The notes below the pieces were generated by a model, which saw only the letters and a program-made list of their open reading frames with translations, did no database searches and was not told the DNA's origin. Below, piece by piece: positions 41,582 through 59,775 of a DNA stretch of 64,000 nucleotides. The translations under genes and the position numbers were made by a program. The stretch is from an uncultured Eubacteriales bacterium (GTDB lineage: Bacteria > Bacillota > Clostridia > Peptostreptococcales > Anaerovoracaceae): assembly GCA_902763505.1 (NCBI GenBank), contig CACWSO010000017.1, forward strand, positions 23,563-87,562. Reading direction: 5' to 3'. Position 1 is the first letter of the stretch; every line of letters begins with the position of its first letter.

Positions 41582-41623
41582 ACAGACATTGGAGGCAGGA
41601 CCGCTGCCTCCGGATACATGGAT

Positions 41624-41968: not shown

Positions 41969-42062
41969 AACCACACCTCCTACCAAATACAGAATACATA
42001 GACAGAGGCTTAAAAGCAACTGTTGTTGAAGGTTAAAAGTAACAGGAAAGGAGGGTGCTGAA

Positions 42063-43661
42063 ATGGCAGATATAAAGACAAGGCAGAGCAATAAAGGTAC
42101 GATCAGAACCATTGACCGGGCCTCAGCGATGACATCGCATGTCAAGGATGTGCACGCCAAGACGAAAGAAGAGATGCTGCACTCCAGAGAACAGAGCAGG
42201 GAGCAGGCATCCTCTCAGGCGTCTGATCAGATGGGACGAGGCGTGGAGCGAAGTGCGAGAAAAGCCGCCGCTTACAGTACAGATGCTGCAAAGGCAGGAT
42301 ACCGTGCGATCAGATCCAAGGAGAGCATCCTGCAAAGAAAGGCAGAACAGAAAATGGCCGGGGAAGAAGTGGCGCGTGAAACCTCGGCGATCCGTACAAG
42401 AGAGGTCGTTCTGCGGTCCCAGCGCATCAGAAGCAAAGGCCGTCCTGCTTTTGCATCAAGAAGGCAGCGGCTTTCCAGACCGGCGAGGACAACGAGAATG
42501 CCGGCGAATGCAGGTCTCAAAATGGCTAAGAAGCAGTTCCAGATGCAGAGACAGACCCGGATAGCGGCAAGGATCTCCAGAAAAGCAGCAGTGAGGGCTT
42601 TACGGAGCATCAAGGCGCTTCTGGAGAGCGCGAAGCTGTTGATAACGGCTCTGACCGCCGGAGGAAGCGTTGCCGTCGCCATCATCCTGATATTCGTGCT
42701 CTTTGGAGCGGCGTTCTATACCTTCGGGGATGACAGCTCCGATAACTATATCGAAGTCAGCCCAGAGGTGGAGGCCTATACGCCGCTGATCAGCAGATAC
42801 GCACAGCAGTACGGTATCGGTGAGTACGTGGAACTGATCAAAGCTGTCATGATGCAGGAGTCCGGTGGCAGAGGCACCGATCCAATGCAGTGCTCTGAAA
42901 GCCCATACAATAAGAAATACTCCCATGCTCCAAACAGCATCAAGGATCCGGAGTACTCCATCAACTGCGGCGTGCATTATCTCGCGGACTGCCTGAAACA
43001 GGCCCAGTGCAAAAGCCCGATAGATATGAATCACATCCGTCTGGCACTGCAGGGCTATAACTACGGAAATGGTTATATCTCCTGGGCCATCAAGAGAGAC
43101 GGTGGTTATACCGTTGCCAACGCCATTGCCTTTTCTGACATGCAGGCGAAGAAACATGGCTGGGACAGCTATGGGGATAAGCAGTATCCTGCGCATGTGC
43201 TCCGCTATTATCCATACGGCAGTTACAACATCGGCGTAGGGAACACAGCTATCGTACAGGTTGCTACCAAGGAACTCGGAAACCACGGCGGAAAGAAGTT
43301 TTGGAGCTGGTACGGATATAACAACAGGGTCAGTTGGTGCGGATGCTTCGTCAGTTGGTGTGCAAATCAGTGTGGATATATCAAATCAGGAACAATTCCG
43401 AAATTCTCCTGGGTGCCGGATATCGTCGACTGGGCAAAGAACCATCATCAATGGCAGAGCAGAAATTATAAGCCGTCTCCTGGGGATATTATCATCATTG
43501 ACTGGTATGCAGATGGAACCAGAGACCATGTAGGTCTTGTTGAACGATGTGATGGTAGAACGGTTTATACCATTGAAGGCAATCGAAGTGATGCAGTAAG
43601 TCGCGGATCCTATAGAGTTGGGAGTGGAACTATATATGGGTATTGCGTACCGAGATACTGA
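42063..43661 (+). CDS. conjugation-associated peptidoglycan hydrolase (lysozyme-like plus CHAP)
   Basis: A 532-residue bifunctional cell-wall enzyme opening a path for the T4SS. The N-terminal 190 residues are Arg/Lys-rich and probably cytoplasmic; a membrane helix spans about 196-220 (ALTAGGSVAVAIILIFVLFG). Outside, a lysozyme/SLT-like domain (about 235-385) has catalytic Glu266 in IKAVMMQESGG. The final CHAP/NlpC-P60 domain has SWCGCFVSWC (catalytic Cys426), DHVGLVE and GNRSDAVSRGSYRVG. It is the last conjugation gene before the defence island. Confidence 0.88.
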   Translation: MADIKTRQSNKGTIRTIDRASAMTSHVKDVHAKTKEEMLHSREQSREQASSQASDQMGRGVERSARKAAAYSTDAAKAGYRAIRSKESILQRKAEQKMAGEEVARETSAIRTREVVLRSQRIRSKGRPAFASRRQRLSRPARTTRMPANAGLKMAKKQFQMQRQTRIAARISRKAAVRALRSIKALLESAKLLITALTAGGSVAVAIILIFVLFGAAFYTFGDDSSDNYIEVSPEVEAYTPLISRYAQQYGIGEYVELIKAVMMQESGGRGTDPMQCSESPYNKKYSHAPNSIKDPEYSINCGVHYLADCLKQAQCKSPIDMNHIRLALQGYNYGNGYISWAIKRDGGYTVANAIAFSDMQAKKHGWDSYGDKQYPAHVLRYYPYGSYNIGVGNTAIVQVATKELGNHGGKKFWSWYGYNNRVSWCGCFVSWCANQCGYIKSGTIPKFSWVPDIVDWAKNHHQWQSRNYKPSPGDIIIIDWYADGTRDHVGLVERCDGRTVYTIEGNRSDAVSRGSYRVGSGTIYGYCVPRY

Positions 43662-43910: not shown

Positions 43911-46900
43911 TTGGATAAGCATGAATCAATACTAACAATAGAATATGAGGATAAAATTACACTCACACCAGAGCAAATTATCGCAAAGGTTTTCGATGAG
44001 TATCGAGATAATCCTATATCCACATTAAGGGCGTTTTATAAACAGAACCCTTATATTTCCCAATCTAGATTTGCGCGTTATATAAGGAACAAGTTTAACA
44101 TGTCTGTTAGTGATTATCTTTGTGATTTAGGAGTGTTAGCACCTTATCAGGATAGTAATAATTCAATGGATTTATCTGCAGAGGATGAACTTCATTTAAT
44201 CGAAGAATTGTTATTGCTTAGGTATAAAAACAATCCTGCCAAGTCACTGATGCAGATTAAGGATGAGAATACTGACATTTCTTTCGGAAAAATCAATCCT
44301 TTAACACGGACCGTTTACAACAAAACAGCAAAAGAGCGATTGGTTGATATAGGAGTCATTATTCCAGAAGAAGAACTACCAAAGAAAGATAATCGAACTT
44401 TAGAGGAGAAACTTGATGAGGTAAAAAAAGCACTAATAGAAAAGTATGCTGGCAAGGAGAAACCAACAACCTTAAAGGAACTGTTTTTTGACAATCCGGA
44501 TCTTAATCTGAATAGCGTTAACGCATGGACACGTGAGCTATATGATATTTCTGCTAAAGAGTATTATCTTCAGATTGGTGTGATGAGCGACGATCCTACT
44601 TTAATTCGTAGCGCAGAAGTTACTACTATCATTCAAGATATAGCAAAAGATAGTAATATGAACGAAGATGAACCCAATAAAGAAACAATAGGTTTTAGTA
44701 AAACGGATAAGTACAAAGAAATAGAGCCAACCTCTCTTTGGTTGATGGGAAGAACTATAAAGTGTTCCGATTGGACACAATTATATGTATCCTTTGTAAA
44801 TTTGCTTTTGAATCAATATCCAGGCTTAATACAAAATTTAAGCTCTGGATCATTTATTGAAAACTCTGATGACATAGATCTTTGCAAAGAAACTAGGGTA
44901 CATAGAATGAGAAAACCAGTAGAGATAGACAAGTTGTTTTTCGTTGAAACTGATTATCCAATTTCTGGTCTAATACAAAGGATGAAGGCATTACTTGAGT
45001 ATTGCGGCCTTGATTACAAGCAATGTAAAATCCGGTATAGTATGAAGACAGATGAAGTATTAGATAATGCTCTAGAATATGGCCATGCGACTAATAAAAG
45101 CAGTAAAGCAGTAGGAAACAATCAGGTTTCTGATTCTTCGAAGTATGATGAACCAAAGAATAATGAAAAGAAAAAGCCTGTTCGTATTATTTGGAACCAA
45201 AATGAAACGGCGCTGCTTATTGACACATACTTAAAAATTTCTTCGGGAGAGGTGACAAAAGGAGAAGCCATTCATTCCTTGTCTACAGTGTTGCGAAGCA
45301 GGGCTGCATCTAAAGGTATTGATATTGATAGCGATTTTCGAAACGAGAACGGTATCACAATGCAATTAGAAAACATTAGCCTTTTAATAGAAGGAGAATC
45401 TGCGGGGCATAGACATAATTCAAGCACATTTATTAGAACAGTTGATTTGTGGAAGAACTCTCCAACTGAGTTTGGTTTGATATTGAAGGATGCATTGGAA
45501 GAACTATCATCAATAGGTATTTTCTATTATCCCTCTGAAAAGAGCAAAAATGATTTAGATGAAATTAAACCATTAGTAGTTGATGATGAACCTCTTGAGG
45601 AGCCTAAAATTGTTACTTGTCATATAACTGCACATTCAAATAATCAAAATGAAACAAAGGGTGGTGTTGTTGAAAAAGAAAGGTTAGAAAAGACTCTTCT
45701 TTGTAGATATCGTAGCGGGATGCAGTTCGATTCAATAGACTTTGAAAATTTCCGTGAGATGTATAGCACTCTATACGATGAAAAACTCGATATTGATGAT
45801 GCTGAACTTGAAAAGAGGCTTCGTTTATGTGGAATCGTCTATAAAGATAGGCTTTTCCCTGCAGAGGGTATTATTGATAACGATACAAAAGAAAAGTTGT
45901 TTTACTATATTGAAAGCAGTTTTCAATCCGGAAAAAAAGTCTTGTACTACAAGGCTATTTTTGAGGATCTTTCAAATATTTTTGCCAACTGCTATTCGTT
46001 AACAGATGAAAATATGCTCAAATCATATATTGAATATGCAGCTGAGGACAATTGCTATTACTTTTTCCCCAATTACATGTCAAAAGAAGAGCAGGTGACT
46101 GTAGATCATAGCGCAGAAATTGAAGAATATCTACTTACTGCAGGAAAACCTATGGCTACAAACGATATATGCAGTGCACTTTCTCACATTCCTAGAGACC
46201 AAGTTGTTCGTATTATTACAACCGATCACCGGTTTTTGAGAAACGCAAAGGGCGAATATTTTCATATTAATATTTTTCAGATTACTACTGATGAGATTAA
46301 GCAGATTACTAGCATTATCAATGGGTTTATTGAAAAAGAAGAATATGCAATTTGGACGAATGTTTTTACGATAATCCAAGAAGAAATGCCCCTGTTTCTA
46401 GAAAACAATCTTTATCTTTCCGGCTTGGGTGTTCGTAATGCATTGGAGCAACACCTTGAAGGGACGTTTCACTTTGAAAGCGCGGTTATTAGTTTAGCTA
46501 AAGATCGATTTGCTATGAGGGATATTTTCCAACTTTATGCAAAACATCATATCAAGTTTTCTGCGGATGAAATATATGAATTAGCGAAGGAATTAGATTC
46601 AATTATATACTTTAATGCACTTTCCGAAGTATCTGTTCGTGTAAGCCACGATTTATTCATTTCAAAGGACCAGATATCTTTCGATGTAGCTGCAATAGAT
46701 AATGCGATCAATAGCTTTATGTCAAAAGATTACATAAGAATTCGTGAGATAGACTCGTTTCTTGTGTTTCCTAATGTGGAATATGAGTGGAATGAGTATT
46801 TATTAGAAAGCTTTGTAAATATGTATAGCGAAAAGTATAGCCTTCTTAACAACGGCTTTGCACTTAATAATGTAGCAGGAGTTATTGTGAAAAAGGAGGG

Positions 46901-47078
46901 CTCAATAAATGAATTTGTGGACGCTTGTGCTGCTGTGCTTGCGGATAGCCCTATTTCATTGAATAAGACCGAAGCTCTTAATTACCTTGCTGATGTCAAC
47001 ATGATAACGAGACGAAGATTTAAGGATTTAGAAGAAGCAATTAATAAAGCAAAGCAGATTCGAATGAGGAAAGGATAA
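43911..47078 (+). CDS. large DNA-binding-type protein with three N-terminal repeats, first gene of the defence operon
   Basis: A 1055-residue protein of unknown family. The TTG start is preceded by CGAGGAAT; no ATG near the 5' end fits. Three related units of about 58 residues occur at 21-78, 94-152 and 167-226, each ending in a similar motif (SDYLCDLGVLAP, KERLVDIGVIIP, KEYYLQIGVMSD). A central block (about 420-530) starting with IIWNQNETALLIDTYLKISS resembles domains next to HNH or restriction proteins. The C-terminal half looks like tandem winged helices (EIEEYLLTAGKPMATNDICS, SINEFVDACAAVLADSPISL). Six bases separate it from the PAPS-reductase gene, so it belongs to the system. It may recognise DNA sites or the invading DNA; this is inference. 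Confidence 0.6.
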   Translation: MDKHESILTIEYEDKITLTPEQIIAKVFDEYRDNPISTLRAFYKQNPYISQSRFARYIRNKFNMSVSDYLCDLGVLAPYQDSNNSMDLSAEDELHLIEELLLLRYKNNPAKSLMQIKDENTDISFGKINPLTRTVYNKTAKERLVDIGVIIPEEELPKKDNRTLEEKLDEVKKALIEKYAGKEKPTTLKELFFDNPDLNLNSVNAWTRELYDISAKEYYLQIGVMSDDPTLIRSAEVTTIIQDIAKDSNMNEDEPNKETIGFSKTDKYKEIEPTSLWLMGRTIKCSDWTQLYVSFVNLLLNQYPGLIQNLSSGSFIENSDDIDLCKETRVHRMRKPVEIDKLFFVETDYPISGLIQRMKALLEYCGLDYKQCKIRYSMKTDEVLDNALEYGHATNKSSKAVGNNQVSDSSKYDEPKNNEKKKPVRIIWNQNETALLIDTYLKISSGEVTKGEAIHSLSTVLRSRAASKGIDIDSDFRNENGITMQLENISLLIEGESAGHRHNSSTFIRTVDLWKNSPTEFGLILKDALEELSSIGIFYYPSEKSKNDLDEIKPLVVDDEPLEEPKIVTCHITAHSNNQNETKGGVVEKERLEKTLLCRYRSGMQFDSIDFENFREMYSTLYDEKLDIDDAELEKRLRLCGIVYKDRLFPAEGIIDNDTKEKLFYYIESSFQSGKKVLYYKAIFEDLSNIFANCYSLTDENMLKSYIEYAAEDNCYYFFPNYMSKEEQVTVDHSAEIEEYLLTAGKPMATNDICSALSHIPRDQVVRIITTDHRFLRNAKGEYFHINIFQITTDEIKQITSIINGFIEKEEYAIWTNVFTIIQEEMPLFLENNLYLSGLGVRNALEQHLEGTFHFESAVISLAKDRFAMRDIFQLYAKHHIKFSADEIYELAKELDSIIYFNALSEVSVRVSHDLFISKDQISFDVAAIDNAINSFMSKDYIRIREIDSFLVFPNVEYEWNEYLLESFVNMYSEKYSLLNNGFALNNVAGVIVKKEGSINEFVDACAAVLADSPISLNKTEALNYLADVNMITRRRFKDLEEAINKAKQIRMRKG

Positions 47079-47084
47079 CAGACT

Positions 47085-49427
47085 ATGTACGCATATGAAT
47101 GGGATAGTTCCACAGGCGGATACATATTAAAACCAATACCTTTGAAATTTTCAAAAGAACCTCGGCCAGTTTATTATAAGGAACTTGATATATTGGGCTT
47201 TGATAAGTATTGCACCTATGATAAAAATGATAGCTTTCCTTATATGTGGGCAGAAGCAAATAATTACTATTATCGTGGTAGGCTTGTGGCAAAGATAAAA
47301 GGAGGAACAATCTTCACCGCTCCTGAGATACAAATGATAGAGGAGCCTGAGCCAGAAGGATATGATTTAAGATTCGTTGATATTCCTGCAATGGTAGAGA
47401 AAAATAGCCCCATACTTAAGCAACTTGTTCAGGAGACTATTAAAAAAATATACAACACTTATATTGATTATCAAGGGAAAACGGATGTATTTTATGTTGC
47501 CTTTTCCGGCGGAAAAGATAGCGTTGTTGTACTCGATTTAGTCCAGCGTGCATTGCCTCACAACATGTTTAAGGTGCTTTTCGGCGACACAGATATGGAA
47601 TTCCCCACTACGATGGAGCTAGTTGAAAAAATAAAGACATACTGTGCCGAGCAGGAGATAGATTTTCATGTTGCAAAATCAAAGATGTCTGCGGAGGAAT
47701 CTTGGGACCTATTTGGACCTCCAGCAAGGAGAGTTCGATGGTGTTGCACTGTACATAAAACTGCGCCAGTAATAAACAAACTCAACGATCTGTACAATAA
47801 GGAATATATAAGGACCATGATGATAACTGGAGTGCGGGCAGATGAGAGTGCTAGTAGATCAGAGTATGATGAATTGAGTAAAGGAAAGAAAATTGCTGGC
47901 CAGTACAGTTACCATCCAATTCTTGAGTGGTCATCAGCAGAAATCTATTTATATATTTTTGCAAATGATTTACTCATGAATGAAGCATATAAATTCGGCT
48001 TTAATAGAGTGGGTTGTATAATGTGCCCGAATTCCTCTGAAAAGCATGAGTTCATGAAACGAAAAGTATTTGAAGATGAGGTTATAAAGTTTGCTAATAT
48101 AATTATTAGTAATAGTGCTAAAGATCTATCTGGAGATAACGCAAGGAGCTTTTTAGAAACTGGAGGGTGGAAAACTCGTCTAAGCGGACGCGAATTAAAG
48201 TTCAGCGAAGACGAGAGATTTTCTTACGAAGAAAAGAAGGGCCTATTTGAGTTCAAGGTCAGACAATTAAACATAGTCTGGAAAGAGTGGTACAAGACCA
48301 TTGGAGAGATAAATGAGGTCGATCCGGATACTTACCTACTAGAATATAATGGTATTATCAGAAGATGTACAATTTATCATAAAGACAAATATGACATTAT
48401 CAATATTGAAAACGAACACAGAACAAAAAATGCAATTGAATTTGTTTCGTTCTTTAGAAGTGTTTTAGCAAAATCTCAATACTGCGTTAACTGTGGAACA
48501 TGTGAGGCAGAATGCCCATATAGAAATATTAGTATGCAAGATGGACGAACTGTTATTTCAGGCGATTGTATTAGGTGCCATGAGTGTTTGAAAATGAAAT
48601 ATGGATGCATCTTATACAATTCAATTAAAGGGAGCAAAATTATGAAAAAACTAACAGGAATCAACAAGTATCTAAGTGTTGGCATTGACGCCAATTGGAT
48701 AGAGGCATATTCAAGAGACCACACGTTTGAACCCGGAAATAGAAAAACAGACGTAATGTTTGGTTTTATGTCTGATGCAGGTATTGTAAAAAAGAAAAAA
48801 CTAACACCTGTTGGTGATACGATTTTTGGATATGATTTAGACGCAGAGTTGCCTTGGGCATTAATGTTGTGCAATCTTGCGTATTCATCCCAATACGGAT
48901 GGTATATCAAAAACATTCCATTCTTCGAGTACGTTAATTTAGAATCTGTAACACTTCGTTTGCAGCAAGAAGACGTTACAGATAAAGCAATTAAAGAGTT
49001 TTGGAATGGATTTAAGGTCATTTTAGATACAACAAAACCACTTAACACTATCGGATTTGGAATACCAGAGATTGAAGAGAAAATCACAAAAACCGGTGAT
49101 ATAAAAAAGAAGATGATTTCAATTCAGCGCATTCCGTGGCCAAATCCAGATGAGAGAGTCATTCTTTATTCGCTATATAAGTTTGCAGAGGCGTGTGGTA
49201 ACTACAAACAATTTACACTTGATAGATTAATGGATTTATCTGTGGAAAGCAATGGAATAAGTCCAGTTCAAATCTTTGGGTTAGATAGAGATACAATGGA
49301 GAAAATACTTAACGGTTTAACGTTTGATTATCCGGATCTGATTGAAGCGAGATTTACTTTGGGTCTAGATAGCATTACATTAAAGAGTGAAAAAAGCGCA
49401 GAAGAAGTTTTGGCTGAGTTGTTCTAA
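47085..49427 (+). CDS. brxP: BrxP-like PAPS-reductase/DndC-type protein with ferredoxin and DUF4007-like parts
   Basis: A 780-residue protein. The PP-loop SGGKDS at 141-146 (ATP-binding, PAPS-reductase/DndC type) is followed by C220-C221 in VRWCCTVHK and C311-x2-C314 in GCIMCPNSSEKH, the 4Fe-4S pattern of DndC and APS reductases. A bacterial ferredoxin-like insert carries C467-x2-C470-x2-C473-x3-C477 and C495-x2-C498-x2-C501-x6-C508. The C-terminal 250 residues (LTPVGDTIFGYDLDAELPWAL) resemble DUF4007, found with phosphorothioation genes. In DndC this domain activates phosphate for sulfur insertion into the DNA backbone. It is the expected substitute for the PglX methylase in BREX type 4. Confidence 0.8.
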   Translation: MYAYEWDSSTGGYILKPIPLKFSKEPRPVYYKELDILGFDKYCTYDKNDSFPYMWAEANNYYYRGRLVAKIKGGTIFTAPEIQMIEEPEPEGYDLRFVDIPAMVEKNSPILKQLVQETIKKIYNTYIDYQGKTDVFYVAFSGGKDSVVVLDLVQRALPHNMFKVLFGDTDMEFPTTMELVEKIKTYCAEQEIDFHVAKSKMSAEESWDLFGPPARRVRWCCTVHKTAPVINKLNDLYNKEYIRTMMITGVRADESASRSEYDELSKGKKIAGQYSYHPILEWSSAEIYLYIFANDLLMNEAYKFGFNRVGCIMCPNSSEKHEFMKRKVFEDEVIKFANIIISNSAKDLSGDNARSFLETGGWKTRLSGRELKFSEDERFSYEEKKGLFEFKVRQLNIVWKEWYKTIGEINEVDPDTYLLEYNGIIRRCTIYHKDKYDIINIENEHRTKNAIEFVSFFRSVLAKSQYCVNCGTCEAECPYRNISMQDGRTVISGDCIRCHECLKMKYGCILYNSIKGSKIMKKLTGINKYLSVGIDANWIEAYSRDHTFEPGNRKTDVMFGFMSDAGIVKKKKLTPVGDTIFGYDLDAELPWALMLCNLAYSSQYGWYIKNIPFFEYVNLESVTLRLQQEDVTDKAIKEFWNGFKVILDTTKPLNTIGFGIPEIEEKITKTGDIKKKMISIQRIPWPNPDERVILYSLYKFAEACGNYKQFTLDRLMDLSVESNGISPVQIFGLDRDTMEKILNGLTFDYPDLIEARFTLGLDSITLKSEKSAEEVLAELF

Positions 49428-49438
49428 GGAGGAAAAAG

Positions 49439-52400
49439 ATGAGTTATAGAGAATATTTCGACATCGATCCAGAATACTTTCCGCAAGTGGACAAACAAAT
49501 AATTGACGAACAACCGGATCTTTGGAAGAAGTTTTATCCACATCCGTCATTTATCCAACTGCTTAAGGCGATGGTGGATGTGTTGGAGCGCAAACAAAAG
49601 CTTTCTGTTTGGGTTGATGGTGCTTACGGCACGGGCAAGTCTCATGCTGTTTTTACGCTTAAGAAGTTAATCGATGCAACAGAAGAAGATACAAAGGCAT
49701 ACTTTGATAGATATGAACTGGATGATTTCCTCTGTAAAAAACTGATTGCTCAAAAGAACGAAGGTAAGATCCTTGTTTGCCATCGTTATGGATCATCAGA
49801 CATTCAGAGTGATACAGATTTAATTATTGCGATACAGGAAGGCATAGAGAAAGCACTTGAAGAGGCTGGAATAGATAACACTGCGAATACATCCTTAAAA
49901 AATTCACTTATTAGATTCTTTGAAGATGAAGAGAACAGACAGAGCTTTGATGTTTATGCCAATGGAAAGTATAAGACTGTCCTTGGTGGAGATACAGCAG
50001 TTGATATTCTTAATAAGTTAAATGAATATGAAGAAGAAGCACTTCGCGCCCTTATCACAAAGATATTTAAGGTTCCAGTTGTAAAGGGTGGTTTTTCCAT
50101 GAACACAAGTGAATTATGTGACTGGATACGTGAAGTAATTGAGAAAAATAATCTCAAGGAATTGGTGTTCATTTGGGATGAGTTCTCAGAGTACTTTGAG
50201 AACAATATGCATCATTTAACTGGTTTTCAGCAAATTGCTGAATTAGCTGCAACAGCTCCGTTTTGCTTGATGATTGTGACACATAAAGCAGAGGGATATT
50301 TTTCAGACGGCGATCCCGATAAAAGAAAGATACTTGATAGATTTGTCTCCCCAATACATATTTCTCTGCCCGAAAATATCGCCTTTGAGCTTATGGCTCA
50401 GGCAATGAAGATAACTGATGACATTGACAAAGCAGCCAAATGGGAAAAACACAAAGCAAGTTTGGATCATCGTACAATGCAAAGTCGAACAGCTGTAAAA
50501 AATAAGATTAATTTGAGTGATAGGGATTTAAGCAGTGTTTTGCCGATTCATCCTTATGCGGCATTGATTCTGCAACACATTTCCATATATTACACATCCA
50601 CGGCTCGTAGCATGTTTAACTTTATCAAAAACGATGAAGGCGATGAGGTGAAAGCATTTCAATGGTTTATAGATAATTATGATTTCAGTTCTCAGAATCC
50701 ATTTGTAACTATTGATATGTTGTGGAATTTTTTCTATGAAACCGGAAGTCAGAAACTTGCAGATGGAATCAGGGAAGTATTGAGTTGCTATACACCAAAA
50801 CTCGACAAAGATCTTTTAACTGATGAAAAACGAGTAATGAAAGTTGTTCTGTTGCTTCAAGCCATTTCAGAAAGAATGACTGGCAATCGAGATATGTTCT
50901 TGCCAAATAATAAGAATTTGACTTTGGCTTTTGAAGGAACAGATCTTGAATTTACTGCACCGAAAATAGCAAACAAATTGTTAAATGACCATATATTAAC
51001 ACGGACACCATTAACAGGTGATGTTTTCTCTTATTGTTGTAAAAACTCAGGGCCTATTGTGGACATTACTCAATTCCTTCCACATGCAAAGGCCAAGTCT
51101 ACTAAAGACATGTCTTTCATGGCAGGCAGCGGCTTACGAAGCACAATAGAACTAGTAGGTGCCTTAAAGTTGCGTTATTCGCTTGCATATGCAACTGTTA
51201 CGGACTTCGATAGTGAAATAAAAAAGGCAAACAATCCTAGTACAAACAGCAACAAGTTATATGCTGTTTGTACCATTGGGAGGAATTCATCGGAAGGTGG
51301 TGCGATAAAGAAGAAAATTGAGAACTTCTTTGTCAACAATCCGGACTCTAATGCTATTGTAATTGACAGTTCATCATGCAACCTTAGCGATAATGAATAT
51401 GACAATTTTATTGAGAATTATGCGATGTCGTTGGCGATTGGAAGTAGCGATCTAGACCAACGAAAGACGTATGAGAGCTATGCCATTGAAGTGCTTTCTA
51501 ATTGGGCAAAACGAATAAAGGACGGCGCGTTTTATGTGCACTCCAGATATACGCCCAATGGGGAACGTGTAGCGAATATGCAAGACCTCTTTATTAAAAT
51601 GATGGAGATTAATAAGTATCATTATCCCCAGTGCCTTGAAGGGGCTTATCCAAACGTCTTAAATACGATGTATGATGCCAACTCTCTTGGAGCAGGGGCG
51701 ACATGTGGTATCAATGAGGAGACGAAAGGAACATACCGTTCTGCAAACGAAGCAACAAAGCTTGAAAACGCATTAAAAGGAGCCTGGAAGACTCCGGATT
51801 ATTGGAAGTCGGCGCATATTTATATCGCAACCTTAAAAAAGAATGTAGATGAGTTTATTGAAACAGCATTTTCTAAAGGCGACAGAGTATCCATCGGATC
51901 TATATATGAAATGTTAAAAGCAGAGCCTTATGGATTTATGCCTTGTAACCTTACCGCTTTTATCCTTGGATTCATCTTAAAAGAATATGCCAACAGTATC
52001 TATTCCTATAGTGACAATCTTACTACAGTTCCTTTAGATACTGACAAGCTTGCCGGTATGATTTCCGAAATCATTAAGCAAGACAATACTCCGGATAGGC
52101 GTTATAAGGACAAGTTCATTGTCACACTTACAGAAGAAGAAAGGGCATTCAATAAAGCAACTTCTGTAGCATTCGATATTCCGGAAATGTATTGCGTTTC
52201 AATTACCGAAACTCGGGCAAGAATACGAGAGCAAATGAAAGGTTTTTCTTTCCCAATTTGGGTAATTAAGTATGTACTTGATGACTATTCGTTTAAATCC
52301 AGCAAGGATGTTGTATCCAAGTTGATTGACAACTATTGCGGAATAGCTAATAACAAGAACCTTGACGGTGACAAATCAGACAGTGATATTGCACTTGCAA

Positions 52401-53623
52401 TAGGGAGATTATGCCTTGAGAATATCGATGCAGCAGAGGACTTAAAGTCCCTCATGACAAAGGATAATTGTAAGAGTGGGATGCTTGAATACCTTAAGGT
52501 TTATGAGGGAGGAAAGATGCCATCGATTGCAGCAAAAATCAACGATGGGGGTCAATATATCAACCAGCTGCAATACAAATTCAATTCAGACGCTGCAAAT
52601 TGGGTTTGGAATACCGATACCGTCAATGCCAAAATTGACGAACTGATTTGTGAATATGAAATAGTTGAAACCAGCAACAAAATCCTTGCAAAAAATACTA
52701 CCTATGTGGATACAATTCGTGCCTGGATAGACAAAATTGGACAGGTACGACTGGCATACTCTGTAATAAAAAATGATTTAGGAGATGATAAGCCTTTCTT
52801 TGAAATGCTCTACACTCTATATAAACAGAGGAGTTTACTTGATTCACAAAAGAGCGTATTTCTTAATTTGCTTCGAGATAGCATTGATAGCTTTAAGCGT
52901 TTTATGAGTAATCAGAGTGATCTCTTAATGAAGTCGTGCAGTTCTTATTTGGATGATCTTAATGAGGAAGATGTTAGATACATACTGGATGACGATACCT
53001 ATGGTTTTGTCAACTCGTATCTGACAGAATCTGATAAATATACGGAAAAAGTGCAAAAGGCCGTCGAGGCTTATAAAAACGCACAAAAATTTACTCAACT
53101 TAGAGCACATTGGACAGAACTGACCGGTACGGACTCTCCATATGGATGGTCTAATAAGTATAGCATGCCAATTCTTGCATTGGTCCCAAGTGATGAGATG
53201 ATTACAGCAAGAAAAGCGTTTGGAATTATTAATTCAAAAACAAAAGATGAGGATTCAATTGCAATGGCAGAAGACTACATCAGTAAAATGTCTTATGTAT
53301 CAAAATTAAACAATAAGGATGATCGGGATAAGGCGTTTAAGGACTCTTTCCTTGCCAACTACTCAGTGTTGTTTGAAGACGTTGATAAATTAAAGGCAAA
53401 ATTGAGGAGTAATATTTCCGAAAATCCATACTATTGGTTGGGAAGTAAAGAAGTAACTGCGTTGATTAAAGAGATGGCAGATGTTTGTTATAAAGAAAGC
53501 GGTTTTGAGGAAGTTAAAAAGGCAATCGATGAGATGACAGCAGATCAAGTTAAAGAGTATTTGATTGAGCTTATCAAAGATAACACCTTAGTAGGTGTAG
53601 AAATCATGAAGGGGAACAAATAG
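49439..53623 (+). CDS. brxC: BrxC/PglY-like large P-loop ATPase
   Basis: A 1394-residue protein. Walker A GAYGTGKS is at 61-68 and Walker B VFIWDEFSE at about 243-251, with the sensor-like ATAPFCLMIVTHKAEGYF after it. The remaining 1100 residues are a long helical region typical of BrxC/PglY proteins. BrxC is an ATPase of unknown mechanism needed for BREX defence and modification. It is in operon with the PAPS-reductase gene (11-base gap, GGAGGAAAAAG) and the PglZ gene. Confidence 0.82.
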   Translation: MSYREYFDIDPEYFPQVDKQIIDEQPDLWKKFYPHPSFIQLLKAMVDVLERKQKLSVWVDGAYGTGKSHAVFTLKKLIDATEEDTKAYFDRYELDDFLCKKLIAQKNEGKILVCHRYGSSDIQSDTDLIIAIQEGIEKALEEAGIDNTANTSLKNSLIRFFEDEENRQSFDVYANGKYKTVLGGDTAVDILNKLNEYEEEALRALITKIFKVPVVKGGFSMNTSELCDWIREVIEKNNLKELVFIWDEFSEYFENNMHHLTGFQQIAELAATAPFCLMIVTHKAEGYFSDGDPDKRKILDRFVSPIHISLPENIAFELMAQAMKITDDIDKAAKWEKHKASLDHRTMQSRTAVKNKINLSDRDLSSVLPIHPYAALILQHISIYYTSTARSMFNFIKNDEGDEVKAFQWFIDNYDFSSQNPFVTIDMLWNFFYETGSQKLADGIREVLSCYTPKLDKDLLTDEKRVMKVVLLLQAISERMTGNRDMFLPNNKNLTLAFEGTDLEFTAPKIANKLLNDHILTRTPLTGDVFSYCCKNSGPIVDITQFLPHAKAKSTKDMSFMAGSGLRSTIELVGALKLRYSLAYATVTDFDSEIKKANNPSTNSNKLYAVCTIGRNSSEGGAIKKKIENFFVNNPDSNAIVIDSSSCNLSDNEYDNFIENYAMSLAIGSSDLDQRKTYESYAIEVLSNWAKRIKDGAFYVHSRYTPNGERVANMQDLFIKMMEINKYHYPQCLEGAYPNVLNTMYDANSLGAGATCGINEETKGTYRSANEATKLENALKGAWKTPDYWKSAHIYIATLKKNVDEFIETAFSKGDRVSIGSIYEMLKAEPYGFMPCNLTAFILGFILKEYANSIYSYSDNLTTVPLDTDKLAGMISEIIKQDNTPDRRYKDKFIVTLTEEERAFNKATSVAFDIPEMYCVSITETRARIREQMKGFSFPIWVIKYVLDDYSFKSSKDVVSKLIDNYCGIANNKNLDGDKSDSDIALAIGRLCLENIDAAEDLKSLMTKDNCKSGMLEYLKVYEGGKMPSIAAKINDGGQYINQLQYKFNSDAANWVWNTDTVNAKIDELICEYEIVETSNKILAKNTTYVDTIRAWIDKIGQVRLAYSVIKNDLGDDKPFFEMLYTLYKQRSLLDSQKSVFLNLLRDSIDSFKRFMSNQSDLLMKSCSSYLDDLNEEDVRYILDDDTYGFVNSYLTESDKYTEKVQKAVEAYKNAQKFTQLRAHWTELTGTDSPYGWSNKYSMPILALVPSDEMITARKAFGIINSKTKDEDSIAMAEDYISKMSYVSKLNNKDDRDKAFKDSFLANYSVLFEDVDKLKAKLRSNISENPYYWLGSKEVTALIKEMADVCYKESGFEEVKKAIDEMTADQVKEYLIELIKDNTLVGVEIMKGNK

Positions 53624-53638
53624 TTCGGAGGTCATTAT

Positions 53639-55924
53639 ATGAATCTGAATGAGGCGAAGAATAGAGTACAAAGCTATTTGAAATCAACGAAAACCTGGCC
53701 ATTAATTGTAGATGTTCAAACAAAGACAGATTTACATGATATTATTGATTTCTTTAATATCGGAGACAATCAGTTTCCCATTACAGAAAAATTCTGTAGC
53801 CAAGATGGTCTTTTGAAAATGGACGAACTTTATGCCGCTATTTCAAACAACGTTGGTAACACTTTCATTTCAGGCATTACAGGTTTTATAAAACTGCTGG
53901 GTGAAATTGAAACAAAAAAGGCCTTAAAGACAATGGTTACAACTACCATTTCAGGGCATGTAGTAATCTGTACATATCAGTGTAAAAACTATCTTAAGTT
54001 TTCAGATCCAAGAATCACCGAAAGTGGAAGGGTTGTTATAGTTGATGGTTCTCCAGATAACATAACAGAAATCTGTCTTATTTCACCAGTGCTGTCAAAT
54101 GCTTTTCCAGGAGCATATCAAGGGATACAGAAGATTGGAGATGTGATAGAGAATTGTACAAATGATACTGCGTATATTGCAACTACAGTTGATACAAGTG
54201 TTTTCTCAGAATCTGTATATCATATTTCACAATTAAATAATGGCTATGATATTTTACGTGACAAAGATCCTAGAACAAGTATTGTCCCTCAAAGCTTCGG
54301 AAATGATTCTCAGTGGAACTATGTACTGCAACATATGGGAAGTAAAGGAGATTGGAACTCTGTAATTGTTGAACACTTTGGTTCAGAGAACAATCTTGCG
54401 CAAGCTATTGCTGCCTATCCTTTATTTGATAAGCGGAAACAATGGTTATACTATATTGCGCTCTCTATCTGTGGTGTAAGTGATAACGAGTATCTTCAAT
54501 TAGCCGTAAATAATGCAGCAAATTCTGATGAGTTTGTTAAATCACTCTATCGTACAATTCTTGCGGTTGACAAAACAGATGAAAAATTCTCTATGTTGTA
54601 CAAACAACGCAAAGAGATTGTTCGCCATTTTAATAGTTTTCTCCTGGAAGTGGTGGATTATTGTAAAGTCCTTTCGATTAAAGGAGAAGATTCAATTTAT
54701 TATTTGACTGATTTGACGCAGCCTGAAAAAGAGAAGGTGATAAAATGGCTTGACATTTATGGCGAACATTATTCGGCGGAAAAGATTGTTTCTATCCTTA
54801 GTACCGTTTACCCAGACTTGGCATGTTATCTCACAAGTTTTCGTTTCAAGAATGAACTGTTAGATCACTATTTTGAAACATATAAATATCAGAAAGTTAT
54901 TAATCGTATATTGCCTTCTTTTGAGGCAATTGTTGACGAACAATCTACAAGGATGGATTTCGTTTCTTTGTTGAAACCTAGAACATCAATTGTTGATAAG
55001 CTTGATGTCTTAAACGCCCGGGCATTTTTCTTTGATGCTCTTGGTGTGGAGTATCTTGGATATATTCAAGCAAAATGTAATGAGTACGGATTATCTGCAA
55101 ACATTTCATATGCAAGGTGTGAACTACCATCCATTACCTCATTTAACAAAGAGTTTGTTGAAACTCTGAACAAAAGGGGATGTATGGTTTCAGATATTAA
55201 GGACCTAGATGAAGTAAAGCATCACGGAGAAGATAACTTTGACTATGAGAAGGAAAAAACACCAATTTACCTAATCAGAGAACTAGAAATAATAGATGAA
55301 TTGCTAAATAAAATTAGAGCCAGTGTATTCGGTGGTCAGTATGATAAAGCAATTATTATTTCAGATCATGGCGCCAGTAGACTTGCAGTTCTTCATGGAA
55401 CCGAGAATATTTGGAGCATGGCTACCAGTGGCAAACACTCGGGAAGATGTTGCAAAGTTAGTGAGATTGACAGTAAACCAGATTTCGCAATTGAAGAGTC
55501 TGAGTATTGGATACTAGCGAATTATGATAGGTTCAAGGGCGGAAGAAAAGCCAATGTTGAAGTGCATGGAGGCGCTTCATTAGAGGAAGTAGCAGTACCG
55601 ATTATTGAAATAACACAAAAACAGACCAATATAGAAGCGTTCATAACTGATGACTCGAAGATTATAACACTTGGTGCAAAAGAGCATGCAGTTATTAGAA
55701 TATATGTTGGGATCAAGAGTAATAACATCTTGATCAGGATTAATAACCACTATTATGACGCAGATATGACAAACGATTCTTATGTCTATACTGTTGATCT
55801 ACCAGACTATTCGAAGAAGGGTATATATTCGTTCGATATTATTAACGGATGTGATGTAATCGCTGTTGGACAACAATTTGAAATAAAGAAAAAGGGTATA
55901 TCCGAAGTTGATTTGTTCGGATAA
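53639..55924 (+). CDS. pglZ: PglZ-domain protein (BREX)
   Basis: A 761-residue protein of the alkaline-phosphatase superfamily fold. The PglZ metal-binding motif is IISDHGASRLAVLHG with Asp576-His577; YDKAIIISDHG precedes it and ILANYDRFKGGRKANVEVHG and GASLEEVAVPIIEI, the usual end of PglZ domains, follow. The N-terminal 500 residues are family-typical but poorly conserved. PglZ is the hallmark of every BREX type. Confidence 0.88.
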   Translation: MNLNEAKNRVQSYLKSTKTWPLIVDVQTKTDLHDIIDFFNIGDNQFPITEKFCSQDGLLKMDELYAAISNNVGNTFISGITGFIKLLGEIETKKALKTMVTTTISGHVVICTYQCKNYLKFSDPRITESGRVVIVDGSPDNITEICLISPVLSNAFPGAYQGIQKIGDVIENCTNDTAYIATTVDTSVFSESVYHISQLNNGYDILRDKDPRTSIVPQSFGNDSQWNYVLQHMGSKGDWNSVIVEHFGSENNLAQAIAAYPLFDKRKQWLYYIALSICGVSDNEYLQLAVNNAANSDEFVKSLYRTILAVDKTDEKFSMLYKQRKEIVRHFNSFLLEVVDYCKVLSIKGEDSIYYLTDLTQPEKEKVIKWLDIYGEHYSAEKIVSILSTVYPDLACYLTSFRFKNELLDHYFETYKYQKVINRILPSFEAIVDEQSTRMDFVSLLKPRTSIVDKLDVLNARAFFFDALGVEYLGYIQAKCNEYGLSANISYARCELPSITSFNKEFVETLNKRGCMVSDIKDLDEVKHHGEDNFDYEKEKTPIYLIRELEIIDELLNKIRASVFGGQYDKAIIISDHGASRLAVLHGTENIWSMATSGKHSGRCCKVSEIDSKPDFAIEESEYWILANYDRFKGGRKANVEVHGGASLEEVAVPIIEITQKQTNIEAFITDDSKIITLGAKEHAVIRIYVGIKSNNILIRINNHYYDADMTNDSYVYTVDLPDYSKKGIYSFDIINGCDVIAVGQQFEIKKKGISEVDLFG

Positions 55925-55940
55925 AAGAGGAGGAAAGGAA

Positions 55941-57377
55941 ATGACCGAAAAACTAAGAGAATATTTTGATGAGATGGTTGTATATAAGGACCTGAAAAAC
56001 AATAACTATTTTTCATCCTTAGGTCTACCAGCTTTCCTAAGAGACTATCTCCTTAAGAGCTTTTGTGATGATTATGGGAATTTTGATATGGAAGAAGTAT
56101 CAGAATTCGTAAAGAAGTTCATCCCAAAGAAAGAAGATTGGATGAGCATTAAGAATAGAATCGTTTATGAGAATGAGAATGTTCAGATACTAACGAAGAT
56201 TTCTGTTGACATCAATATTAAAACAGGAGAAATTTCTTTTGCAATTCCAAATTTTGGAGTAACAGAGAAAGAAACCATGATTGAACCTGGAATTTGGGAA
56301 TTGTACAAAGATGAATTAACAAGTGGTGGTGAAACTTGGGGCATTATTAAGCTAGGATATCGTCCACCAGATGATTCTGTAAAGCCCAAAATTCCTGGTA
56401 AGATAAAGTTAAATGCGTTTAAGAATTTCTGCCCGTATGAAGTCGACCTTGATTATTATAAGGAGATGAGGTCCTACTTCACTATTGAGGAATGGATAGA
56501 CGTTTTGTTAGGTGCAATTGATTATAACGCAGCTGGTTACGAGACAAAGCTGCAGAAACTCTCGATGCTGACCAGGCTTCTACCATTTGTAGAAAAAAGA
56601 GTTAATATCATTGAGCTAGCACCTAAAGGAACTGGTAAAAGCTATGTCTTTGGGCATGTTAGTAAATATGGTCTTCTTACAGACGGTGGAAAAGTCACCC
56701 GTTCAAAAATGTTTTATGATGCAAACAGAAGAAAGCCAGGATATATCTGCGGGCCGGATTTTCTTGCAATAGATGAAGTAAAGCTTGTTGACTTTGGCGA
56801 TGAAAATGAAATGCGTTCAATTCTTCAAGGTTATTTAGAATACGGTACATTTAATGCCAATGGTTATAACGGAGAATCTGATGCAGGTGTTGTTTTCTTA
56901 GGCAATATCAAAGAAGAGAACATGAATGAATATGAATATATGCTTGGTGAATTGCCAACGCTATTTCAAGAGACAGCGCTTCTAGATCGAATTCATGGGT
57001 TTGTTAAGGGATGGGATATTCCAAGAATGAATGATAGCTTAAAGATTACAGGCTGGGCGTTGAATTCAGAGTATTTCTGTTCTATTCTTCATGAGTTGAG
57101 AAATGATTTGAGTTATCGTGCCATCATTGAAAAAATGGTTAAAGTTCCTGAACAAGCAGATACTCGCGACACGGAAGCAATTAAGAGAATCGCAACAGCC
57201 TATTTGAAACTATTGTTCCCTAATGTTAGGAATGAACATGATGTTGATGTAATACAATTTCGTGATTATTGTCTCTCGCCCGCAATGAAAATGCGAAGAA
57301 TCATTAAAATGCAACAAGGAATGGTTGATATTGAATATAAAGGGAAAGATATTCCACTATTAACAGTGGAGGGCTGA
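55941..57377 (+). CDS. brxL: BrxL-like AAA+ protein, short form
   Basis: A 478-residue protein. ATG 55941 follows GGAGGAAAGG. The N-terminal domain is of BrxL type (EYFDEMVVYKDLKNNNYFSSLGLPAFLRDYL). The AAA+ core has Walker A APKGTGKS (227-234), the conserved KVTRSKMFYDANRR, Walker B DFLAIDEV (273-280) and GVVFLGNI. It ends shortly after the AAA+ lid, so the Lon-protease-like C-terminal domain of the roughly 680-residue BrxL of type 1 systems is absent. BrxL forms DNA-encircling rings and takes part in phage restriction. Confidence 0.85.
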   Translation: MTEKLREYFDEMVVYKDLKNNNYFSSLGLPAFLRDYLLKSFCDDYGNFDMEEVSEFVKKFIPKKEDWMSIKNRIVYENENVQILTKISVDINIKTGEISFAIPNFGVTEKETMIEPGIWELYKDELTSGGETWGIIKLGYRPPDDSVKPKIPGKIKLNAFKNFCPYEVDLDYYKEMRSYFTIEEWIDVLLGAIDYNAAGYETKLQKLSMLTRLLPFVEKRVNIIELAPKGTGKSYVFGHVSKYGLLTDGGKVTRSKMFYDANRRKPGYICGPDFLAIDEVKLVDFGDENEMRSILQGYLEYGTFNANGYNGESDAGVVFLGNIKEENMNEYEYMLGELPTLFQETALLDRIHGFVKGWDIPRMNDSLKITGWALNSEYFCSILHELRNDLSYRAIIEKMVKVPEQADTRDTEAIKRIATAYLKLLFPNVRNEHDVDVIQFRDYCLSPAMKMRRIIKMQQGMVDIEYKGKDIPLLTVEG

Positions 57378-57378
57378 T

Positions 57379-57576
57379 ATGGAAAAAGAGTGTGTGGCCT
57401 GTGGGAAAAAACCATTAAGTAAAGATACAATAGGTATCAACAAAAAAATGCTTGGCAAAGGTATTGCTAATTTCTATTGCATGAATTGCTTAGCGGATTA
57501 CCTGGGATGTACTGTTGATGATTTGTTAGACAAAATAGAAGAGTTTAAGGCAGAAGGGTGTTCTCTCTTTCAGTGA
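57379..57576 (+). CDS. small Cys protein of the defence operon (65 aa)
   Basis: ATG one base after the brxL stop, with GGAGGG upstream. Two CxxC-type pairs, KECVACGKK near the start and YCMNCLADYLGC in the middle, suggest a zinc or Fe-S knuckle or a sulfur carrier, followed by a helix (VDDLLDKIEEFKAEG) and a last Cys in GCSLFQ. It lies between BrxL and the cysteine desulfurase, so it may relay sulfur between the desulfurase and the BrxP-like protein; this is inferred from position and cysteines only. Confidence 0.6.
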   Translation: MEKECVACGKKPLSKDTIGINKKMLGKGIANFYCMNCLADYLGCTVDDLLDKIEEFKAEGCSLFQ

Positions 57577-57586
57577 GGAAAGTATT

Positions 57587-58732
57587 ATGAAACAGTTTAT
57601 CTATGCAGATAATGCTGCGACAACAAAGCTGGACAAGACGGCATTTGATGCGATGATCCCGTGGTTAACTGAAGAATATGGTAACGCTTCACAACTATAT
57701 ACTTTTGCTAGACGTCCTAAAAAGGTTCTTGCGGAAGCTAGACAAATTATTGCTGACGCTATTAATGCGTCGCCTGAGGAAATATTCTTCACATCGGGAG
57801 GAACAGAGAGTGATAATTGGGCAATAAAAGGCGCTGCCTTTTCTGATCCTCTAAAACGGGTTACAATCACATCTTCTATCGAACATCATGCTATCCTAAA
57901 AGCGTGTGCTGCGATAGAAGAATTAGGATACCCCGTACTATATATTCCCCCTGATAAAAATGGCGTTATCACATCAAATAGGTTAAAAGAAATAATGACG
58001 GACAATACACACCTTGTGTCCATAATGCTCTCTAATAACGAAATTGGTACTATTGAACCTATTCAAGAGATGTCGTCAATTGTTCATGGAAAAGGTGCGA
58101 TATTTCATACAGACGCGGTTCAAGCAGTCGGACACATCCCTATTGATGTCAATAATCTTGGCGTTGATATGCTTTCTGCATCTGCACATAAATTCAATGG
58201 GCCAAAAGGGATAGGTTTTTTATTTATACGAAAAGGGACAGAGCTAAAACCCCTTAATGATGGTGGAGCTCAAGAACAAGGGCTTAGGGCAGGAACAGAA
58301 AATATTGCCGGCATTGTTGGTATGGCTACTGCATTAAAAAAGAACATTGAAAAGATAGAAGAGAATAAAAGATATGTTGAGTCGCTGGAACAAGAATTGT
58401 TGCAAGGTATCAGTTCATTGGATTATATCAAAAACGGTTCTGGAAATCGCATCCCAGGGTGTATAAGCCTATCATTTAAGAACGCAGATGGGGAAGCCAT
58501 TATGCATCAAATGGACTTGCAAGGCATTTGCATATCTACTGGTTCCGCTTGTGACAGTGTCGATATCAAATCTACTCATGTAATACAAGCTATAAGAGTT
58601 CCAGAAGCATATGCCACTGGAACAGTACGAATCACTCTAAATAAGGACAACACAATGGAAGAGGTTAAGAAAATCTCAACGACATTAGTTCAAATAATCA
58701 ACAGATTGAAAACAAACGATTCTATTGGATAA
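57587..58732 (+). CDS. cysteine desulfurase (IscS/DndA-like)
   Basis: A 381-residue class V aminotransferase-fold PLP enzyme releasing sulfur from L-cysteine as an enzyme persulfide. The PLP lysine is Lys202 in SASAHKFNGPKG, the persulfide Cys322 is in STGSACDS, and the substrate-binding GGAQEQGLRAGTEN is intact. The length fits DndA and NifS/IscS. Its position as last gene of the packed BREX-like operon, 10 bases after the Cys protein, argues for dedicated sulfur supply to the DndC-like BrxP rather than general Fe-S assembly. Confidence 0.9.
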   Translation: MKQFIYADNAATTKLDKTAFDAMIPWLTEEYGNASQLYTFARRPKKVLAEARQIIADAINASPEEIFFTSGGTESDNWAIKGAAFSDPLKRVTITSSIEHHAILKACAAIEELGYPVLYIPPDKNGVITSNRLKEIMTDNTHLVSIMLSNNEIGTIEPIQEMSSIVHGKGAIFHTDAVQAVGHIPIDVNNLGVDMLSASAHKFNGPKGIGFLFIRKGTELKPLNDGGAQEQGLRAGTENIAGIVGMATALKKNIEKIEENKRYVESLEQELLQGISSLDYIKNGSGNRIPGCISLSFKNADGEAIMHQMDLQGICISTGSACDSVDIKSTHVIQAIRVPEAYATGTVRITLNKDNTMEEVKKISTTLVQIINRLKTNDSIG

Positions 58733-58782: not shown

Positions 58783-59775
58783 ATGCCAGCAGGAAAAGCA
58801 AAAGAGAAAAATATGATCAAAGCTCGCTTGTTGGTTCTTGTTCAGATGTTCTACGAACATACAGATCAGGAAAATCCAATGACTGGGCAGGATATATTGG
58901 ATTATCTGGCAGATCATAATGTACCCGCAAATGAAAAAACTGTACGCGGGGATATACAATTGTTACAGAATTTAGGCCTTGATATTGTTAAGATTGTCAG
59001 CCGACCAAATCTGTTTTATTGGGGTGAGCGACAGTTTGAATTGCCAGAGCTGAAGCTTTTAGTTGATGCAGTGGCATCATCACGTTTCATCACAAAGAAA
59101 AAGAGCAATGCTCTTGGCAAAAAACTTGCGCAACTGGCCAGTGAGAACCAGAGAAAAGATCTGAGAAGACATATTCAGGCCACTAATCGGGTGAAATCAG
59201 AGAATGAGTCGATCTACTATTCCGTCAATACAGTTAATGAGGCAATTAGCCGCAGGAAGAAAATTCGGTTTCAGTACACTGAATTCGGACCAGACCTAAA
59301 AGAGATTCTTCGAGGTGATGGAGAAGTATATGAGTTGAGTCCGTATGCGCTTTTGTGGAATGAGGATTATTACTATGTTGTTGGCTGGTCCGGTAAGCAT
59401 GACAATGTATCTGTATTCCGCGTGGATCGACTGTATCGTCCAGTAATTTTGGATGAAAAGGCTGTTAAGAGACCGGATGACTTCGATTTGGACGACTACT
59501 CAACCCCAATATTTGATATGTTCGAAGGGCCGGAACGTGTTACGGTTAAACTCGAAGTCAAGAACGAACTGGCGAAGTACATTGTAGACAGATTTGGGGC
59601 AAAGCTTGAGACAAGACAGACATCAGATGAAAGCTTTACGGTAAAGGTAAATGTATCTTTGAGCCCAACATTCTACGCTTGGGTGTTCCAGTTCGCAGGC
59701 GGAATAAGGATTATATCACCTAATAAGGCTATTGATGAATATATGATGATGTTGAAAAGTGTTATGGAACAGTGA
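58783..59775 (+). CDS. WYL-domain transcription regulator
   Basis: A 330-residue protein. The N-terminal HTH (LDYLADHNVPANEKTVRGDI, then QLLQNLGLDI) is DeoR-type. The WYL domain (about 150-240) has FQYTEFGPDLKEILRGDGEV, ELSPYALLWNEDYYYVVGWS and VSVFRVDRLYRPVI. The C-terminal WCX extension is present. WYL regulators commonly repress defence systems. It may bind the inverted repeats upstream of 43911. The gap to the desulfurase gene is 50 bases with its own GAGAGGTG site. Confidence 0.88.
   Translation: MPAGKAKEKNMIKARLLVLVQMFYEHTDQENPMTGQDILDYLADHNVPANEKTVRGDIQLLQNLGLDIVKIVSRPNLFYWGERQFELPELKLLVDAVASSRFITKKKSNALGKKLAQLASENQRKDLRRHIQATNRVKSENESIYYSVNTVNEAISRRKKIRFQYTEFGPDLKEILRGDGEVYELSPYALLWNEDYYYVVGWSGKHDNVSVFRVDRLYRPVILDEKAVKRPDDFDLDDYSTPIFDMFEGPERVTVKLEVKNELAKYIVDRFGAKLETRQTSDESFTVKVNVSLSPTFYAWVFQFAGGIRIISPNKAIDEYMMMLKSVMEQ

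Follow-up and report, generated by a model that had tools for sequence, protein, structure and literature searches.

The BREX type 4 system, brxPCZL, is one of three known gene families that make phosphorothioates according to the passages on type 4 in PMC11931770, whose reference list includes Yuan et al. 2024 on BREX type 4. That sulfur takes the place of methyl in type 4 is already in print (the same passages and those in PMC12839542), and section 34 of PMC12839542 reports that, of 457 type 4 taxa, 255 have a cysteine desulfurase, and that a small zinc-finger protein co-occurs. How sites are chosen for these sulfur marks is left without explanation in the type 4 passages of both papers. Here, an operon of this family is described in a 64,000-nucleotide stretch of DNA, called the window below, from an uncultured Eubacteriales bacterium (GenBank assembly GCA_902763505.1, contig CACWSO010000017.1, positions 23,563 to 87,562 of the forward strand). 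The principal observation is that the core of its sulfurtransferase, BrxP, is exchanged as a cassette between otherwise near-identical systems.

The operon consists of seven genes on the + strand (43911-58732) separated by 6, 11, 15, 16, 1 and 10 bases, as had been read in an original prediction made from the letters alone (gaps of 1-16 bases). These genes, and the regulator gene that follows them, are:

43911-47078, + strand: gene 1, 1055 residues, TTG start, no family match
47085-49427, + strand: brxP, PP-loop sulfurtransferase with a 4Fe-4S part and an SspB-like (DUF4007) C-terminus
49439-53623, + strand: brxC, AAA+ ATPase, 1394 residues, matched by PDLC02485
53639-55924, + strand: pglZ, type 4, 761 residues, matched by NF033445
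55941-57377, + strand: brxL, AAA+ protein, ATG start, from profile matches
57379-57576, + strand: small Cys protein (zinc-finger-like), 65 residues with two CxxC pairs, from its sequence
57587-58732, + strand: cysteine desulfurase of the DndA/SspA/NifS superfamily, from profile matches
58783-59775, + strand: WYL-domain regulator, from a profile match

The start of brxL was taken as the ATG at 55941; the TTG at 55908 given in the open reading frame list would overlap pglZ.

Profile searches covered every gene between 43911 and 62100 except that of the small Cys protein, nine of ten in all, and matched BrxP (PADLOC PDLC02510, 733 bits, residues 1-778), BrxC (PADLOC PDLC02485, 739 bits, residues 3-1391), PglZ (PDLC02554, 316 bits; BREX_PglZ_4, NF033445, 477 bits, cut-off 140) and BrxL (PDLC02505, 670 bits; TIGR02688, 402 bits, cut-off 329) far above chance. 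Against NCBIfam NF033441, BrxC scored 35.8 bits, under the cut-off of 400. As originally predicted, no PglX-type methylase was found among the nine proteins, and the lone match to a methylase model was that of BrxP to a type II model (21 bits). With a type 4 PglZ, BrxP in place of PglX, BrxC, BrxL and the DUF4007 (SspB) part all present, the predicted BREX type 4-like operon is confirmed as BREX type 4, and is an apparently complete and ordinary member as far as the operon goes.

Relatives were collected by scanning genome contigs with an alignment of BrxP and keeping the best 80 of 363, a sample biased towards the window's clade. The order brxP-brxC-pglZ-brxL was also found in relatives with long enough contigs, apart from a few broken copies such as L057. 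Among alignment columns with a conservation of 97% or more in relatives, the window departed at 0 of 119 positions in BrxP, 1 of 118 in BrxC, 0 of 39 in PglZ, 2 of 136 in BrxL, 0 of 13 in the Cys protein and 2 of 79 in the desulfurase. Since the conserved residues are nearly all kept, the operon looks intact, without sign of decay. Promoter-like sites numbered 61 against 59.4 expected, hence no promoter is claimed.

The operon shares with described type 4 systems its gene order, the type 4 PglZ, a desulfurase with a small Cys gene, and a BrxP composed of 3'-phosphoadenylyl sulfate (PAPS) reductase, Fe-S and DUF4007/SspB parts. The Cys protein is a candidate counterpart of the small zinc-finger protein that section 34 of PMC12839542 places next to the desulfurase. 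The operon differs from described type 4 systems by the addition of gene 1, a component that section 34 does not name. The SspABCD systems are resembled in the SspB-like fold of BrxP residues 520-780, in the match of the desulfurase to SspA (429 bits) and in a weak SspC likeness of BrxC. In contrast to those systems, the sulfurtransferase and the SspB-like part form a single protein, and PglZ and BrxL are present where Ssp systems have SspE or SspFGH; none of the nine scanned proteins matched the SspB, SspE or SspFGH models, and a separate sspB-sspC-sspD layout was not found.

With DndABCDE the operon has in common a cysteine desulfurase and a PP-loop sulfurtransferase with an aligned counterpart of the DndC 'specificity loop', in which three positions follow the modified motif according to the section of PMC12193691 on the loop. 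BrxP, called PP-loop/DndC-like in the original prediction, is not DndC itself (TIGR03183, 39.5 bits, cut-off 290.4); DndD and DndE had no match among the operon proteins scanned. The predicted cysteine desulfurase was upheld at the level of the superfamily (PADLOC SspA/DndA models, 429/427 bits). Only the superfamily is certain, because the NCBIfam cut-offs for DndA (TIGR03235, 323.5 against 480), NifS (453.8 against 530.75) and IscS (319.9 against 643.2) were all unreached. Phosphorothioation of the host DNA, as originally proposed, is well supported by family membership, though not new, and probably takes place in this organism.

Exchange of the BrxP core between near-identical systems

BrxP was compared in an alignment (A3) of 74 rows, comprising the window and 73 loci. 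Seven of the 80 loci are absent from it: L083, L097, L120 and L123 did not pass a length or completeness filter, the near-duplicates L064 and L112 were removed manually, and so was L075, a fragment at a contig end. The fold likeness to SspB lies in the C-terminal part of BrxP, and that to PAPS reductase in the PP-loop part. Its relevant features are:

47505-47522, + strand: PP-loop SGGKDS, residues 141-146, invariant in the alignments of relatives
47607-49139, + strand: exchangeable core cassette, approximately residues 175-685, left edge varying between pairs
47724-47732, + strand: residues 214-216, counterpart of the DndC specificity triple in the alignment, with class-specific residues at 215 and 216
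48642-49424, + strand: SspB-like region by fold, residues 520-780

The loci L049 and L066 provide the sharpest case. Identity between them is 95% for gene 1, 98% for BrxC, 95% for PglZ, 99% for BrxL and 99% for the desulfurase, against 58% for the whole of BrxP; within BrxP the first ~165 residues are 99% identical and the last ~85 residues 96%, with a middle of 36%. The DNA is 89-100% identical upstream and to about nucleotide 460 of brxP, 41-70% identical to about nucleotide 2080, and 80-100% (mostly above 90%) beyond, so that both breakpoints, at about 460-500 and ~2080, are sharp. The same shape was observed for L053/L091, L048/L059, L046/L063 and L080/L083 (neither record of the last pair is labelled a metagenome assembly), becoming less sharp as the flanks diverge. 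The drop in identity starts earlier, near nucleotide 190, in L053/L091 and L048/L059. In some pairs the desulfurase and gene 1 vary more than BrxC, a pattern that the sharpest pair lacks.

Across the 2415 of 2701 pairs with BrxC alignments over 900 residues, BrxC identity correlated with that of the two BrxP ends (r 0.73 and 0.69) but little with that of the core (0.26). The 58 pairs with BrxC above 75% identity had a core below 50% in 39 cases, of 50-65% in two and of 65% or more in 17. Trees were built from 39 of the 74 BrxP rows, picked by hand. By the approximately unbiased test (p-AU), the core tree rejected the clade of the window and nine others seen with the ends (p-AU 3.7e-11) and the clade of L049 and L066-L068 (p-AU 1.2e-53); the ends rejected the core's clade (p-AU 4.6e-6) and, weakly, L049/L050/L054 (p-AU 0.037). 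At ~55% identity the 74 BrxPs fell into 20 core classes, ten of them with a single member. Ten of the 49 BrxC groups had several members, and eight of these ten contained more than one core class. The window BrxP itself belongs to core class 1 and its nearest backbone relatives, L056 and L057, to class 19. Such exchange of the core is not mentioned in the passages on type 4 in PMC11931770 and PMC12839542.

Two candidate explanations of how cassettes are assigned or supplied were rejected. Gene 1 does not dictate the cassette: the L049 and L066 cores differ beside gene 1 proteins that are 95% identical, and L066 and L068 have BrxPs that are 95% identical beside a rearranged gene 1. Local switching between silent copies was also dismissed. 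No silent cassette beside brxP was found in the stretches of 95 sequences searched (the window, L046-L131 and eight others), and none of the four sequences with more than one BrxP-like stretch (L099, L127, L130 and L131) shows one; in L099 the second stretch is a distant partial relative. Because no silent cassette was found, exchange between elements is more likely.

The remaining three multi-stretch loci are recorded as observations in their own right. In L127 (6614-12031) brxP is split by two near-identical 438-residue transposase-like genes, presumably ISL3-like. L130 and L131 contain a row of BrxP-like proteins in another arrangement, possibly another sulfur-transfer system; the first of these proteins has a match to the small Cys protein, and its likeness to BrxP is confined to roughly the first 510-535 residues.

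Gene 1, a modular partner of brxP

Gene 1 is the conserved partner of brxP in this clade, which goes beyond what was found in print. The nearest upstream open reading frame of at least 100 codons before brxP was a gene 1 homologue in all 78 testable loci of the 80; in the remaining two, L055 and L121, the contig reaches no more than 64 and 154 bases upstream of brxP. The gap to brxP is mostly below 25 bases and is longer in L068, L076, L083, L103, L114 and L122, with a second, shorter gene 1 homologue lying in between in L114. Six of the 78 relatives are cut by contig ends, and the gene 1 alignments A2 and A4 held 71 and 47 of 79 proteins, respectively.

A wider sample was drawn independently from 398 genomes of the phylum, 14 of which, the window's own included, had a type 4 PglZ. 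Fourteen other places were fetched, and 12 had brxP with upstream DNA. In these 12 testable Bacillota type 4 loci gene 1 was clear in six, weak in one (L237; E 3.7e-6, with a stronger SAM match) and missing in five; in L231 a 238-residue protein lies between gene 1 and brxP. The six clear cases are those with a BrxC scoring best against the window's clade. Gene 1 was also not found in the Methanosphaera plasmid copy of the system, and its presence throughout BREX type 4 is ruled out by that plasmid and the wider sample. Because only part of the wider sample carries it, gene 1 marks a subclade.

Gene 1 had no match in PADLOC, Pfam or NCBIfam (limits 0.001, 0.01 and 0.001), and its identity with a known family was rejected. 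No description of it was found in the literature on brxP, type 4 BREX and BREX-PAPS reductase, with preprints, most subscription papers and supplements outside the scope of that search. The protein is made up of the following parts:

43944-44582, + strand: three ~60-residue repeats, approximately residues 12-75, 90-149 and 164-224, from a repeat search
44727-45041, + strand: domain SEQ, residues 273-377, candidate SeqA-like fold, shared by 40 of 79 gene 1 proteins
45186-45494, + strand: helical domain NGI, residues 426-528, shared by 55 of 79, mostly near the N-terminus
45696-47063, + strand: C-terminal block CT, residues 596-1051, tandem winged helices, in 79 of 79

The repeats, for which the original prediction had named a repeat protein at the head of the operon, are real: the second repeat as a single query recovers all three. 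The window's protein alone among the 79 has them. Domain SEQ is a candidate for a fold like the SeqA DNA-binding domain, and CT was modelled with a predicted local distance difference test score of at least 93 in each 10-residue block. The 73 full-length proteins showed 24 architectures, with the number and order of domains varying between close systems. A Pfam scan of 47 gene 1 proteins, the window's included, gave eight matches to Phage_int_SAM_1, three to HARE-HTH and one to Myb_DNA-bind_4 (E up to 0.1), and a PADLOC scan gave six families with one member each. Gene 1 is a shuffled array of domains, predicted to be DNA-binding-like, before a conserved winged-helix block. The idea that NGI is the sulfur-binding domain of phosphorothioate-reading nucleases was unsupported: a PDB sequence search gave 0 matches, the best profile match was a designed coiled coil (3.2e-4) followed by SNARE proteins, and Pfam gave scattered weak matches only.

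The C-terminal block occurs outside BREX. At L045 (3548-10009) the candidate defence system PDC-M33ABC is followed by a 985-residue protein with RNA polymerase alpha C-terminal domain, sigma-70 region 4 and HHH domains and with the gene 1 block (E 1.1e-51); in contrast to the window operon, matches to brxP, brxC, pglZ and brxL are absent from the 18 kb searched at this locus. Upstream of a distant brxP at L038 (9675-12140), an 821-residue protein with sigma-70 region 4 and alpha C-terminal domains weakly matches the block.

Genomic setting

The operon occupies the slot for cargo genes in an integrative conjugative element. It follows a lysozyme/CHAP gene, downstream of relaxase and coupling-protein genes, and the guanine-plus-cytosine content falls from 0.48-0.54 to 0.35-0.39 at the operon. 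The window ends with the contig, and the far side of the element lies beyond it. A second element in the same genome (L258) has a stretch 80% identical to window positions 40880-43643, followed by other cargo genes, which by eye resemble methylase and restriction genes. Different copies of this element family carry different, defence-like cargo in the slot that comes after the lysozyme/CHAP gene (window 42063-62100; L258). Relatives G237 and G731 have methylase-like genes, by eye, in the same slot. In relative G077 (L260, 1592-13339, minus strand) it holds an Ssp-Pbe-like phosphorothioation system by profile, comprising a BrxP-like protein of 572 residues, SspB, SspC, SspA, PbeA and PbeC. The WYL gene of L258 is 77% identical in DNA to that of the window. 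Because the L258 copy adjoins different cargo, the WYL regulator may be tied to the slot and not to BREX; a relative of it is present in nine of the 80 loci.

Downstream of the WYL gene, positions 59852-61213 encode a 453-residue Cys-rich protein with a weak MqsA-family match (27 against 61.8 bits), and positions 61228-62100 a 290-residue helix-turn-helix-like protein with no family above cut-off. Elsewhere in the window, a low-GC stretch at 23768-25732 encodes a 654-residue protein of toxin-like build with a C-terminal ribonuclease domain (PF00545, 40.7 bits, cut-off 24).

Sequence specificity and alternative explanations

A mechanism can be proposed from the gene content. The desulfurase would draw sulfur from cysteine, and BrxP, with its PP-loop ATPase, 4Fe-4S and SspB-like parts, would act with BrxC to insert it into the host DNA backbone; PglZ, BrxL and BrxC would block unmarked phage DNA. 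The target sequence would be set by the exchangeable BrxP core (residues ~175-685), and the conserved ends (about 1-170 and 690-780) would provide the docking surface for the BrxC complex of their own system. Gene 1 would be a clade-specific DNA-binding-like subunit built from shuffled modules, most likely a scanning, sensing or loading factor. This account as a whole, combining type 4 sulfur marking, specificity set by the core and a DNA-binding-like subunit in gene 1, is considered probable on the sequence evidence.

The core appears to carry the sequence specificity of the mark and to be retargeted by recombination. In L049/L066 it changes without a partner, because the other components compared are near-constant; no small Cys protein was found in this pair. 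In type I restriction, the recognition domains of HsdS are exchanged. For type I BREX, the passage of PMC11341690 concerned reports that specificity comes from PglX alone. As in both, recognition in the window system would reside in one component with the rest constant; in contrast to them, the exchanged part includes most of a sulfurtransferase and is not the recognition domain of a methylase. When three annotated DndCs were aligned with BrxP, the specificity triple fell on residues 214-216, and residues 215-216 are mostly fixed within and different between the large core classes. For the 28 class-specific BrxP positions, the chance of including at least two of the three triple positions is 0.0086, calculated afterwards; the class-specific positions were found before the section of PMC12193691 on the triple was consulted, an earlier passage on the loop being already known.

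Several observations weigh against this account. The 28 class-specific positions are spread over the core with two alone in the loop, and several small core classes have identical loop letters. Core exchange is no proof of specificity, as evasion of phage inhibitors would also select exchange, and the cassette is larger than a typical recognition domain and includes catalytic and Fe-S parts. The 17 pairs noted above retain a similar core beside a similar BrxC. Many loci are metagenome assemblies, L049 included, and L066 is without that label. The p-AU values are optimistic because the groups were named after the trees had been seen, and the trees were quick ones under a simple model. Finally, gene 1 is not universal, given the five loci of the wider sample that lack it and the one weak match.

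A bolder form of the account is offered tentatively, and we lean against it. It holds that two layers recombine independently: the core alone would set the marked sequence, natural chimeras being retargeted systems, and the gene 1 modules (SeqA-like, integrase core-binding-like and winged helix) would read the marking state or invader DNA and license restriction.

It is unlikely that gene 1 is instead a transcription regulator of the operon with no part in the marking and restricting machine. Its folds are of DNA-binding types, it is the first gene of the operon, and a homologous block lies beside sigma-70 region 4 and the RNA polymerase alpha C-terminal domain in another candidate defence system. 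However, it is large, and its domain number and order vary even among close systems, unlike a one-promoter repressor; where a WYL relative is present, that protein could regulate, which is weak evidence.

Also to be weighed, and distinctly improbable, is that core exchange reflects escape from phage BREX inhibitors or neutral recombination, with the target sequence unchanged. The phage BREX inhibitor Ocr binds PglX (in the part of PMC11341690 on inhibition), the conserved BrxP ends would permit homologous exchange between them, and the left edge differs among pairs. Against this, a small number of core classes reappear in systems with different backbones, and the large classes differ at the residues aligned with the DndC triple.

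A role of the desulfurase and the PP-loop protein in RNA thiolation or sulfur metabolism, in an operon that does not mark DNA, is highly implausible: the PP-loop domain does resemble PAPS-reductase, TtuA and NcsA folds, and the best NCBIfam match of BrxP is the uncharacterised PRK13795 family (183 bits, cut-off 745), but BrxP is matched over its full length, has an SspB-like part, leaves the assimilatory CysH cut-offs unreached (69.9 against 165.1 for TIGR00434; 78.8 against 154) and is adjoined by PglZ, BrxC and BrxL in relatives. Grouping of the PP-loop protein with assimilatory PAPS reductases, which the original prediction had named as one of its refuters, was therefore not found. The string ECG[LIV]H, which we take to be a mark of assimilatory PAPS and adenylyl sulfate reductases, was absent from all 74 aligned BrxPs.

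With specificity set by the BrxP core as the preferred reading, the question is directly testable because natural pairs differ mostly in that core. If the reading is true, one core swap would retarget a phosphorothioation system, and several distinct motifs would be expected from the 20 core classes. With gene 1, one subclade of this important defence family gains a conserved component that as yet has no name, and BrxP core exchange together with a modular gene 1 constitutes a variant worth testing.

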